From: an uncultured Coprococcus sp.
GTDB lineage: Bacteria > Bacillota > Clostridia > Lachnospirales > Lachnospiraceae
Assembly: GCA_900557435.1 (NCBI GenBank)
Contig: USSH01000196.1
Coordinates: 1-5,170, forward strand
Direction: 5' to 3'
Length of the DNA: 5,170 bases
The notes under the pieces are model-generated. The model made no database searches. It was not told the origin of the DNA and saw only the letters and a program-made list of their open reading frames with translations. The position numbers and the translations under genes are program-made. Of this stretch, positions 1 to 2,696 are shown in pieces; position 1 is the stretch's first letter; every line of letters starts with the position of its first letter.

Positions 1-121
1 TTGATTTTCCAGCGCCATTGCTTCCTAAAATATGGTTTATATATTTCTTATCAAATGAAATGTTTACATTTTCAAGTAGCTTTTTTTTCCCTACTTTCAA
101 ACTATAATTAATCAGTTTCAT
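1..121 (-). CDS. ABC transporter ATP-binding protein, N-terminal fragment (probable peptide exporter)
   Basis: The gene runs off the left edge; only its first 40 codons are visible. The reading from the ATG at 121 starts MKLINYSLKVGKKKLLENVN and reaches a perfect Walker A loop, GSNGAGKS, at residues 33-40, the standard place for an ABC ATPase. The start is supported by a GGAAAGGA ribosome binding site at 129-136, seven bases before the ATG. The protein would sit at the inner face of the membrane and hydrolyse ATP to power a permease, which is not visible. It follows the YydF-like peptide gene by 106 bp on the same strand. In Bacillus subtilis the yydF cluster includes the ABC pair YydI/YydJ, so this is probably the ATPase of the exporter or immunity pump for that peptide. 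The ABC identity is direct; the role is inference from context. Confidence 0.88.
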   Translation of the reverse strand, partial: MKLINYSLKVGKKKLLENVNISFDKKYINHILGSNGAGKS

Positions 122-136
122 TGCAGTATCCTTTCC

Positions 137-183
137 AAATAGGTGTTTATAAAATATATGAAGCATTCTATAAACACCTATTT
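137..183 (-). terminator. Perfect 15-bp inverted repeat between peptide and ABC genes (attenuator or operator)
   Basis: Bases 137-151 (AAATAGGTGTTTATA) and 169-183 are exact reverse complements, separated by 17 bases. In the minus-strand transcript this folds as a hairpin with an A-rich 5' foot and a UUU 3' foot, but no longer U tract follows. It begins 44 bases after the peptide stop codon and ends right at the ribosome binding site of the ABC gene. A partial terminator, or a 3'-end stabilising hairpin that gives more precursor than transporter, is the reading I favour. A protein-binding operator for the ABC gene is the alternative. Confidence 0.55.
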
Positions 184-227
184 CTCATAAAATATGATAA
201 GTCTACAAATCTCTCGTCTTTTTATAT

Positions 228-386
228 TTAGTGTCCTTTACTACCAACGACAGCTTTAAGGGTAGCGACAATGAAGTACCACATGCTGTTAATATTTTCC
301 AGTTTTAAGGCCTCCATTTTCTGATCCATAACCTCTTTTTTTGTTTCGTTATTTTCTTTAAATTCATTAATTTTCATCTTTACCAT
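228..386 (-). CDS. yydF: YydF-like epipeptide precursor (RiPP)
   Basis: A small gene of 52 codons plus TAA. The predicted product has a charged leader (residues 1-34, containing NNETKKE) and a hydrophobic core, M35 followed by WYFIVATLKAVVGSKGH (36-52). It has no cysteine, so lanthionine or sactipeptide chemistry is excluded. Bacillus subtilis YydF, recalled from memory, is 49 residues, also has NNET in the leader, and ends WYFVKSKENRWILGSGH. The shared features are the size, NNET, the WYF motif and the GS-GH tail. In that family the radical SAM epimerase YydG converts one Val and one Ile to D residues, and the secreted peptide stresses the cell envelope. An ABC ATPase gene follows. Translation may start at ATG 386, with AAAG at 394-397 upstream, or at the in-frame ATG 377 (MKINEF, 49 residues, exactly YydF length). 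Neither start has a strong ribosome binding site. The family assignment is inference from motif matching by eye, without a database search. Confidence 0.82.
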   Translation of the reverse strand: MVKMKINEFKENNETKKEVMDQKMEALKLENINSMWYFIVATLKAVVGSKGH

Positions 387-398
387 ATTCTTTCTTTA

Positions 399-436
399 GA
401 TCATGATGAAAATATTAAACTCTTGCCATCATGATC
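399..436. promoter_or_regulatory. 10-bp inverted repeat over the peptide promoter (operator candidate)
   Basis: GATCATGATG (399-408) and CATCATGATC (427-436) are exact reverse complements separated by 18 bases. One arm lies in the -35/-10 spacer and overlaps the -35 element of the candidate promoter; the other lies at the expected transcription start. That placement is typical of a repressor operator, but no regulator gene is visible in the window. Confidence 0.45.
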
Positions 437-489
437 CAATTCAACGCTCAACAATTACGCATCATGCTGATACACTTGTCCCCATCATG
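402..489. repeat. Four copies of the heptamer CATCATG upstream of the peptide gene
   Basis: CATCATG occurs on the plus strand at 427-433, 460-466 and 483-489, and as its complement CATGATG at 402-408. Starts are 25, 33 and 23 bases apart. The first two copies form the inner part of the inverted repeat over the promoter. A 7-mer would be expected by chance less than once in both strands of a window this size, so the clustering looks like a binding-site array. What binds is unknown. Confidence 0.45.
412..439 (-). promoter_or_regulatory. Candidate promoter of the YydF-like peptide gene
   Basis: Read on the minus strand, TTGGAT (434-439) and TAATAT (412-417) are separated by 16 bases and resemble a housekeeping -35/-10 pair with several mismatches. 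Transcription would begin near 405, leaving a leader of about 20-30 bases before the peptide start codon. No other convincing pair lies closer to the gene. The match is moderate, so this is a prediction. Confidence 0.4.
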
Positions 490-503
490 CCGCCTGCCGG
501 CTC

Positions 504-560
504 AATGAGGGCATTCGCATTATGTCGTCTTACGCAAGCGCATCCGTCGCAATGCTCATT
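504..560 (-). other. Long imperfect stem in the gap after the zinc-ribbon gene
   Basis: AATGA (504-508) plus GCATT (511-515) can pair with AATGC (551-555) plus TCATT (556-560), leaving a two-base bulge and a 35-base interior. It lies just after the stop codon of the zinc-ribbon gene on the minus strand, where a terminator is expected, but there is no U tract. The rest of the 387-575 gap holds only the peptide promoter region. I see no further gene there. Confidence 0.25.
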
Positions 561-575
561 ATATCATATATAGTA

Positions 576-1973
576 TTATTGCTCCGGAACCGGCAGTCTT
601 CCGCTCTCATGCTGCACTTCATCCCACACTGATCCAAATTCATATGTAACATCTATAATCTTATCCTGTCCCTTTGGAATACCGTACACAATATATTGAT
701 ACACCACAGACATTGGGGTAAGGGCATCATCTGTATATTCACCATAGAAAATCTTTCTCTTTATTGGATCCGTATCACTGTCCGTATCTATAACCACAAT
801 GTCAAAGTTTCCTGTTCTCGCGCCGTGATTTAACAATATATCGCTCACCAGATAATAGTCATAACTGTCATAATCAAATTCCACTTCACTCAGATAACTT
901 ATCTCATCAGTGGTAATTTCCGCCCCGCCAGGAAGAGTATATTTCTTATCATTCTCAATTTTCTGTCCATACTCTCCATCGTATATTTTGTATAACTTTC
1001 CTTTAGGAGTGTCAAGCTTACTCACATCATACCAAACCGACGCGTCAGCCTTTTCACCTACCACATACATAATATTTGTAGGAGTAGTCTGACCTTCCGG
1101 TGAATCAGGATCATCATTCTGGCAGTATACGACCATATACCCATAATCACCTGACCTGACCATAAAGTACATATGTCCATGATCAGCATCCACTACTTCT
1201 GATATGTCATTGACATCTGCATATCCATCATATGACACCAAAATGTCTATGTCCTCCTGACTCATAGGTTCCAACATCATACAAGATTTTGATCTGAGAT
1301 ATACATCAAAATAATCCCCTCCGTCTGACATATCCTCTGCATCTGAACTTCCATAATCCGAAGCATCCATCTCATATTCCATGTCGTATACTACATATCC
1401 TTCGGGAACATCGGCATCTTCCAGCTCTATCGGCTCCACTGAATTTATCGTCAACCACGCCGTATTTCCATCAGGATCCACATTCACCATCTTGTCTCCA
1501 AATGCATATCCTTTGACTGGGATACTATCAACATAATAATTTCCATCACCACTATATATTTCATCATCTGTATCCTCATATTCGTCTTCTGTTCCTACAT
1601 CATAACCAAGACTTTTGTCATGATCTGACGTGAGCGCCGAATAAACGGTCACCAAACTTATTATCAGAAAAAATACAATGATAATTATCATGCAGACTTT
1701 TTCCAGTCTCTTTTCATTATCGAGTACGTCTTTTTCTTTCTTCTTGAACCACTCGCTGTGCACGTTTCCATACTGTTTATTCTTGTCTTCAGTATATAAT
1801 GTCTGATCCTGATTGTGATCACCGTACTCCCATCCGGCATTTGCCGGAGCTGCTCCGCTTTCAAACTGCCCATCTCTGTTTTTTTCCACATACCACGAAC
1901 CGCATCTCGGACACATATATCCTGTCTTTTCGGGATCAAATTTTTTACCGCAGCTTTTGCATGTAACCTTCAC
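576..1973 (-). CDS. Zinc-ribbon, single-TM protein with acidic extracytoplasmic domain (unknown function)
   Basis: A 465-residue protein. Residues 5-24 form a zinc ribbon (CKSC, 12 residues, CPRC). A polar linker follows, with a lysine-rich stretch at 77-92. One hydrophobic segment (about 94-114, VCMIIIIVFFLIISLVTVYS) then leads to a 350-residue domain very rich in D, E and Y, with an acidic run at 129-139. The positive residues before the helix predict the ribbon in the cytoplasm and the large domain outside. The start is GTG at 1971-1973, chosen because the ATG at 1977 is out of frame and GAGGTG lies five bases upstream. The gene follows the acetyltransferase stop by 13 bp, with its ribosome binding site inside that gap, so the two are probably cotranscribed. 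Ribbon-TM-ectodomain proteins are common in Firmicutes, and some act in envelope sensing. I do not recognise the ectodomain and assign no function. Confidence 0.9.
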   Translation of the reverse strand: MKVTCKSCGKKFDPEKTGYMCPRCGSWYVEKNRDGQFESGAAPANAGWEYGDHNQDQTLYTEDKNKQYGNVHSEWFKKKEKDVLDNEKRLEKVCMIIIIVFFLIISLVTVYSALTSDHDKSLGYDVGTEDEYEDTDDEIYSGDGNYYVDSIPVKGYAFGDKMVNVDPDGNTAWLTINSVEPIELEDADVPEGYVVYDMEYEMDASDYGSSDAEDMSDGGDYFDVYLRSKSCMMLEPMSQEDIDILVSYDGYADVNDISEVVDADHGHMYFMVRSGDYGYMVVYCQNDDPDSPEGQTTPTNIMYVVGEKADASVWYDVSKLDTPKGKLYKIYDGEYGQKIENDKKYTLPGGAEITTDEISYLSEVEFDYDSYDYYLVSDILLNHGARTGNFDIVVIDTDSDTDPIKRKIFYGEYTDDALTPMSVVYQYIVYGIPKGQDKIIDVTYEFGSVWDEVQHESGRLPVPEQ

Positions 1974-1986
1974 TCATTCACCTCAT

Positions 1987-2625
1987 CTAGTCGTTCTTGC
2001 TTACATTATTATATTGGAAGAAATCTATTCTATGATCCTTGAAGTAATACTTTGCGTCACGCTCATTTACCTCTCGGAGCACCTTACATGGATTGCCGAC
2101 AGCAACCACATTCGATGGAATATCCGTTGCAACCACACTTCCCGCTCCTATGACGGTGTTATCACCTATAGTAACCCCTGGAAGTATCGTAACTCCTGCG
2201 CCTATCCAGCAGTTCTTGCCTATTGTTATAGGTGCATTGTACTGATATCCCTGTTTTCTAAGATCTGCATCTATAGGATGACCTGCCGTTGCCAATGTGA
2301 CATTTGGTCCAAACATAGTGTAATCACCCACATAAATATGTGTGTCATCCACCATAGTCAGGTTAAAGTTTGCATAGATATTGCTGCCCCAGTGAACGAA
2401 TTTGCCGCCCCAATTTGCATGAAGCGGTGGCTCTATATAGCAGTTATCGCCAATCTCCTCGAACATCTCCTTAAGCATCTGCTGCCTCTTGACCATCTCT
2501 GTTGGTCTGGTCATATTGAAGTCATACAATCTGTCCAGACATTTTATCTGCTCCCTTGCGATGTCCTCGTCACCCGGAAGATAAAGCTCACATGTGTGCA
2601 TCTTTTCCATCTCTGATTTACTCAT
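1987..2625 (-). CDS. Maltose/galactoside-type sugar O-acetyltransferase (left-handed beta-helix)
   Basis: A 212-residue cytoplasmic enzyme, the usual length for the LacA/Maa group (about 185-205 residues), which moves an acetyl group from acetyl-CoA to a sugar hydroxyl. Residues 8-60 match the N-terminal Maa helical region (MHTCELYLPGDEDI). From about 75 to 185 it has hexapeptide repeats of a left-handed beta-helix (ITIGKNCWIGAGVTILPG, then VTIGDNTVIGAGSVVATDIP), ending in the typical VGNPCKVLREV. The catalytic His is in TAGHPI, at residue 115 by my count, the number I recall for LacA; the CoA-site Trp is in NCWIG (W139). The start is firm: AGGAGG at 2633-2638 lies seven bases before the ATG. 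The true substrate cannot be read from sequence. It probably heads a two-gene operon with the zinc-ribbon gene. Confidence 0.94.
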   Translation of the reverse strand: MSKSEMEKMHTCELYLPGDEDIAREQIKCLDRLYDFNMTRPTEMVKRQQMLKEMFEEIGDNCYIEPPLHANWGGKFVHWGSNIYANFNLTMVDDTHIYVGDYTMFGPNVTLATAGHPIDADLRKQGYQYNAPITIGKNCWIGAGVTILPGVTIGDNTVIGAGSVVATDIPSNVVAVGNPCKVLREVNERDAKYYFKDHRIDFFQYNNVSKND

Positions 2626-2696
2626 TGTAAAACCTCCTGTATTTTATTTTTGTCTTGGCAACCCCGACACGATGCAAATCCTTTCGTCTTCGCCAT
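2622..2696 (-). CDS. Possible 24-residue leader peptide overlapping the acetyltransferase start
   Basis: From the ATG at 2696 a short frame reads MAKTKGFASCRGCQDKNKIQ and four more residues. It stops at a TGA that overlaps the acetyltransferase ATG (ATGA arrangement), which is the geometry of translational coupling. It contains CRGC. A sister frame at 2703-2738 begins with the same MAKTKGF and stops after 11 codons, produced by the 42-bp duplication. There is no clear ribosome binding site upstream of either, so both could be chance. I list it because of the overlap and the conserved start, with low confidence. Confidence 0.22.
   Translation of the reverse strand: MAKTKGFASCRGCQDKNKIQEVLQ
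2633..2638 (-). promoter_or_regulatory. Consensus ribosome binding site of the acetyltransferase
   Basis: A full AGGAGG on the minus strand, seven bases before the ATG at 2625. It fixes the start of the acetyltransferase and marks it as strongly translated compared with the weak site of the YydF-like gene. Confidence 0.9.

Follow-up and report, generated by a model that had tools for sequence, protein, structure and literature searches.

A likely epipeptide precursor gene of the YydF type in a gut Lachnospiraceae contig

Epipeptides, antimicrobial peptides with two residues turned into their D-form, are known from Bacillus and from some Bacilli of the microbiota, and epeXEPAB is reportedly widely distributed in Firmicutes, going by the title of Popp 2021 as cited elsewhere. 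The closest described system is EPE/YydF of Bacillus subtilis (epeXEPAB, formerly yydFGHIJ), and we compare it here with a small gene in the 5,170-nucleotide contig USSH01000196.1 of an uncultured Coprococcus sp. (the window, meaning that whole stretch). In excerpts of PMC7026026 the YydF core is printed with D-Val and D-Ile, B. subtilis YydF kills by permeabilizing, depolarizing and rigidifying the membrane, and the main resistance in B. subtilis is LiaIH, not YydIJ. Part of PMC12871923 places a terminator between epeX and epeE, with a downstream reporter ~100-fold lower. According to an excerpt of PMC9576775, refactored epipeptide clusters yielded no modified peptide in an E. coli platform. 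An excerpt of PMC8326336 names S. agalactiae and S. epidermidis as prior knowledge on epipeptides; it also describes the proteusin epimerases, which like the epipeptide type perform radical S-adenosylmethionine (SAM) epimerization, including that of Val and Ile, using a Cys, but are without significant homology to EpeE, and which we set apart by that description only. We conclude, with a probability of roughly 0.87, that positions 228–377 of the window (minus strand) encode the precursor of a likely epipeptide, predicted to be matured by a YydG/EpeE-type epimerase, an M50-type protease and an EpeAB-type transporter. Such a branch in gut anaerobes, scoring under the curated models, would be an addition to these; at the level of titles and abstracts we found no paper on a gut Lachnospiraceae epipeptide subfamily, the Popp 2021 distribution survey lying outside that search.

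An earlier note, made from the sequence alone, had proposed a YydF-like precursor in a 52-residue open reading frame (ORF) at 228–386, giving no strand. We confirm the gene and place it on the minus strand, with a revised extent: Met4 of that frame is the exact start of 23 of the 39 aligned homologue rows, and the product is therefore probably 49 residues long, not 52 (Table 1). The layout that the note described, a charged leader followed by a Cys-free core running from WYF to GSKGH, holds good, and a homology search with the peptide gave 40 matches at E ≤ 1, the best at 5.2e-24. There is no cysteine anywhere in the peptide, and its C-terminal 17 residues are WYFIVATLKAVVGSKGH. The YydF core used in the note, with its D-Val and D-Ile, is the one in the excerpt of PMC7026026, and the description of a new, more hydrophobic variant is borne out by IVATLKAVV in place of VKSKENRWIL. 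The window precursor is like YydF in its short leader, its 17-residue Cys-free core starting WYF, its Val or Ile at both D-sites and the structured RNA that follows the gene; it is unlike YydF in the hydrophobic core, in the GSKGH ending, and in having one residue fewer between WYF and GS. The leader motif NNET is not constant among relatives, where NNEN, NNES and NNEA also occur.

Table 1. Features of the window, with coordinates and the basis of each assignment.
Feature	Position	Strand	Basis
ORF of the earlier note, 52 codons, from an upstream in-frame ATG	228..386	minus	ORF list; first three residues unconserved
EpeX-like, epipeptide-type precursor gene (probable), 49 residues and a stop codon, initiating at Met4 of the 52-codon ORF	228..377	minus	Homologue starts, family match, selection
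Predicted leader, 32 residues, charged	282..377	minus	Length equals the 32-residue YydF leader (PMC8326336, excerpt)
Predicted 17-residue core WYFIVATLKAVVGSKGH, residues 33–49 of the 49-residue product	231..281	minus	Aligned with published YydF core and Macrococcus precursors
Ile36, predicted first D-residue (counterpart of YydF D-Val36)	270..272	minus	Val/Ile in 26/26 distinct cores
Val43, predicted second D-residue (counterpart of YydF D-Ile44, two residues before GS)	249..251	minus	Ile/Val in 25/26 distinct cores; gap placement inferred
Hairpin, 19–20 bp, between precursor and exporter genes, arms 137–155 and 165–183	137..183	minus	Fold z −5.66
Exporter ATPase gene, 5′ part, EpeA/YydI-like, first 40 residues, likely ATG at 121–119, runs off the window	2..121	minus	NF058610
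Boundary of the Faecalimonas-like segment, coinciding with the G+C step	378..386		29.0% G+C for 1–386

Of the cassette, the window contains no more than the precursor gene and the codons for 40 N-terminal residues of the exporter ATPase, and the complete partner set is known from a copy in Faecalimonas umbilicata DSM 103426 (NZ_SLZV01000030.1, locus L001), the sole locus found in the genome contigs. There the precursor occurs twice in tandem, as X1 and, downstream, X2. The window copy is X2, with two differences in 378 bases, one synonymous (Gly48) and one at window position 128. The Faecalimonas genes run in the order X-A-B-E-P, and a full predicted maturation set adjoins a near-identical precursor. 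The earlier note had proposed looking for a YydG-like gene within about 5 kb to the left of position 1, and in this syntenic locus one lies ~1.2 kb past the equivalent point. The proteins resembling YydG, YydH, YydI and YydJ score 142.6, 82.4 (NF058609), 222.8 (NF058610) and 136.5 bits (NF058605); for the M50-type protease, which has HELGH, and for each member of the ATP-binding cassette (ABC) pair this is the top match. The exporter fragment of the window, read as 55 residues from an upstream ATG at 166, likewise has YydI NF058610 as by far its best NCBIfam match (E 5.9e-11).

The epimerase of the Faecalimonas type has several features expected of an EpeE-type enzyme. In an alignment of 32 sequences P221-C222-C223-S224, C203, C285 and C288 are invariant, and positions 221–224 remain at least 90% conserved when two more distant rows replace those of Macrococcus. 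The position of the H-atom donor, EpeE C223 (the C223A entry identifies the Cys), is present together with the C-terminal cysteines of the second Fe-S cluster, and the protein matches SPASM (PF13186, E 3.7e-6). With the protease and the ABC pair, this C223 position is a further likeness of the Faecalimonas cassette to the B. subtilis system. By this comparison, the radical SAM enzyme would epimerize Ile36 and Val43 in the 17-residue end, the protease would cut the core from its leader, the transporter would handle the peptide, and the resulting antimicrobial peptide with its D-residues would act on the membrane. The partner genes would continue past the left end of the window. The hairpin, by analogy with the terminator region of B. 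subtilis epeX, probably keeps the precursor mRNA in excess over downstream genes, whichever gene follows. Similar folds come after the precursor in Macrococcus (z −5.50 and −6.54) and at the gut loci of genomes G079 (−7.40) and G315 (−4.94); the degraded locus of G279 has no hairpin there (z −0.01).

Could the frame resemble YydF merely by accident? The family model that the earlier note had pointed to, TIGR04077 (epipeptide YydF), is the sole NCBIfam match of the precursor at E ≤ 10 (E 0.0052), and its weak score of 16.7 bits, below the curated cut-off, is what could be said for that view. It is hardly credible in the face of homologues, partner genes and selection, and the pattern of change between the tandem Faecalimonas copies refutes it. 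Between X1 and X2, 21.5 of 24.7 synonymous sites have changed, compared with 4.5 of 122.3 nonsynonymous sites, and in the core codons there are nine synonymous changes and no nonsynonymous ones. The peptide frame is thus under strong purifying selection, and the conservation in relatives that the note had anticipated is observed.

A search from a small alignment found 80 proteins related to the precursor; for comparison of the core, 80 proteins from this and the first homologue search were combined with seven locus translations into 87 rows. A complete core is present in 68 rows and takes 26 distinct forms; in the remaining 19 it is cut short, shifted in frame or without the W or the glycine end. 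The complete cores follow a short leader and fit a Cys-free pattern WY(F/L)...GS. The first site is Val or Ile in every distinct core, and the second is Ile or Val in all except P0027, where one residue is missing. Residue 37 is highly variable, with 10 residue types among the 26, and the middle has nine residues in 14 cores (the window type), ten in 11 and eight in one. A variable middle between two fixed Val/Ile sites provides a natural experiment on the choice of residue by EpeE-type enzymes. Across seven gut-type precursors the highest TIGR04077 score is 30.0 bits (G079, E 3.6e-7), none reaching 35, while P0025, a close relative, has no match at E ≤ 1. The G079 precursor bridges the window type to the Macrococcus peptides at 75–76 bits. 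The latter belong to Macrococcus/Macrococcoides plasmid loci (NZ_CP065730, NZ_CP092173) that are like the gut loci in their five components, the hairpin after the precursor and recombinase or integrase genes nearby. They are unlike them in the canonical order X-E-P-A-B and in a YydF-type core, WYFVKSDKNRW(I/V)AGSAH (precursors 75.8 and 75.2 bits; caseolyticum epimerase 434.6 bits).

Several observations weigh against an epipeptide assignment for the window gene. The curated cut-off of TIGR04077 is 35 bits, and those for YydG, YydH, YydI and YydJ are 300, 225, 240 and 270 bits; all five cassette genes fall short. The Faecalimonas epimerase is only ~24% identical to EpeE, and Asp210 of EpeE (mutated in 8ai6) has no clear counterpart, lying beside a three-residue length difference with an unconserved D208 nearby in L001. 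Since the middle is one residue shorter, the predicted D-sites are seven apart in the window type, compared with eight in YydF. The residue after the second site (Val44 in the window peptide) is also Val or Ile in 19 of the 26 cores, so that the second site is placed less sharply than the first and, on the alignment, is not pinned. The hairpin is followed by no T-run and is not called by the terminator scan, and promoter and intrinsic-terminator scans of the window gave nothing exceeding shuffles, with no above-chance promoter before the precursor. For P0149, the commonest relative (core WYLVVASLKAIVGSKG, 989 contigs, one of 4.4 Mb), and its near relatives, no epimerase partner was found in the protein collection. 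P0149 is annotated only as a hypothetical protein; the few source-named members of the gut branch bear that label or radical SAM without stated function. Finally, the epimerase is broken or missing in all three of the other genome loci read.

These three gut loci keep the order X-A-B-E-P where the genes are present, and each has decayed differently. In G079 the epimerase gene has two stops and the exporter reads intact. In G279 the close epimerase is truncated, the precursor contains a stop and the exporter ATPase is broken. In G315 the epimerase is absent and the protease truncated, with an exporter that reads intact. The window copy might itself be a stranded or decaying cassette, of the right family and likely missing a working epimerase or protease, its precursor and exporter kept as immunity or debris. 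The window also lacks a counterpart of X1 and its upstream region, and at position 128, before the exporter start, the ribosome-binding-like AAAGGAG of Faecalimonas is AAAGGAT. We consider this unlikely, as the precursor and visible exporter are intact and differ at only two of 378 positions from an intact cassette, and full-length epimerases are numerous in the protein collection.

We tentatively suggest, at somewhat below even odds, that there is a separate mobile class of epipeptides among gut Lachnospiraceae, with hydrophobic cores, D-residues seven apart, immunity and export genes first and paired precursors. In Faecalimonas it would have its own SAM synthetase last in the operon; the cassette would jump between genera, with repeated loss of the epimerase and retention of the exporter leaving immune non-producers. 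A trend in that direction could not be proved from three loci, and the role of LiaIH, not YydIJ, as the main resistance in B. subtilis weakens the idea.

Radical SAM relatives were found in 4 of 397 genomes sampled from the family (E ≤ 1e-30), 1 of 10 from the genus (E ≤ 1e-30) and 1 of 398 from the phylum (E ≤ 1e-25), and precursor relatives in 5 of 369 from the family (E ≤ 0.001) and 1 of 392 from the order (E ≤ 1e-4); the samples overlap, and Faecalimonas is counted among the matches every time. Of the five family matches, the one in G051 has E 6e-4 and falls within a frame of 404 codons; it probably arose by chance. Two of the four genomes with a radical SAM match have distant relatives, at 28% in G128 and at 33% in G279 besides its truncated close one. 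That of G279 lies in a different, second YydG-like cassette (L033, 5264–8927) with an ABC ATPase, a permease, the radical SAM gene (229.5 bits on TIGR04078), an M50-like protein and, in last place, a small ORF ending ILGSWFFVYK. In G128 (L034, 2259–7918) the YydG-like gene (220.5 bits on TIGR04078) adjoins a peptide whose leader ends in double-glycine fashion (LNEVQGG), and its neighbours include an ABC gene resembling peptide exporters and a further radical SAM-like gene; it is possibly a mixed cluster for ribosomally synthesized and post-translationally modified peptides. The G315 cassette is flanked on both sides by large serine recombinase genes, and that of G279 has apparent CRISPR-set genes to either side, judged without a family search.

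The segment shared with Faecalimonas ends no more than ~10 bases from the precursor start, at a step in G+C content from 29.0% at 1–386 to 41.8% at 387–575 and 43.0% beyond. Against window positions 1–2650, matches in the Faecalimonas genome are confined to 1–382. The gene at 576–1973 has only short matches (<40 bases) in 397 sampled Lachnospiraceae, in which the acetyltransferase reaches 74%; the aconitase is at ~75% in the 10 genomes searched. This pattern makes the host a species other than F. umbilicata, and probably another Lachnospiraceae genus. The G+C step, with near-identity to a genome otherwise unlike the flank, points to recent horizontal acquisition of the cassette. A simple X1–X2 recombination is not supported, the sequence upstream of the window precursor being no more like that upstream of X1 and X2 than are shuffles.

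The coincidence of identity and G+C shifts within ~10 bases at the start codon would also be expected if metagenome assembly had fused host DNA to the cassette where the precursor begins. The protein collection contains odd joins of the cassette, in P0053 (an epimerase with a different N-terminus labelled PF01076) and P0139 (epimerase–ketosynthase). We regard such a chimera as quite improbable, since forms of the precursor with other upstream sequence occur in several contigs (nine for P0001, eight for P0003) and varied upstream junctions are thus not unique to this contig; even if real, it would leave the identity of the peptide unchanged. A third fused protein is P0044 (epimerase–permease), and frame changes, recombination or assembly chimeras may underlie all three.

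The Faecalimonas cassette (28.7% G+C) is preceded by DNA of 44% G+C containing a long gene, with N6-methylase and helicase domains, and two small ones; downstream the DNA remains A+T-rich. Thirteen bases past the protease gene, behind AGGAG, starts metK (methionine adenosyltransferase; L001 13231–14442), likely the last gene of the operon; a second metK elsewhere in the genome is 77% identical to it. That the operon should bring its own SAM supply for an enzyme consuming SAM is an attractive idea from one locus. The Faecalimonas cassette departs from B. subtilis EPE in gene order, tandem precursors, metK and scores. After the operon comes an agr-like block (AgrB, LytTR regulator, GHKL kinase; 14568–17975). 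This block, and the short name of TIGR04077, expor_sig_YdyF, could mean that the product is an exported signal instead of an antimicrobial, possibly still modified. We give this little chance of being right, because B. subtilis YydF kills via the membrane (PMC7026026, in excerpt) and no agr-like block was recognized among the ORFs listed for the other loci. The antimicrobial epipeptide that we favour is directly testable, as the cassette looks intact in the cultured strain DSM 103426.

In other collections, the precursor has no Pfam match above the gathering score and no PDB match. Some type-D relatives bear a precomputed PF27801.1, which our local Pfam copy did not return, and part of the family may therefore already be covered by a Pfam entry. 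Viral contigs contain no relative of the precursor and phage records gave no match. Radical SAM searches found 10 distant loci in viral contigs (25–42% in the best segment) and five distant plasmid records. Cassette DNA matched 43 plasmid records, in the 20 matches listed through the metK part only.

To the right of the precursor lie ordinary genes: one for a protein whose N-terminus resembles a zinc ribbon (weak matches only), one for a maltose/galactoside-type acetyltransferase and one for an aconitase. Just past the cassette edge there is an inverted repeat at 396–439, with 13-base arms containing GATCATGATG. A ~90-base element at 484–572 is multicopy in some Lachnospiraceae genomes, for example with more than 10 copies at up to 87% identity in G071.
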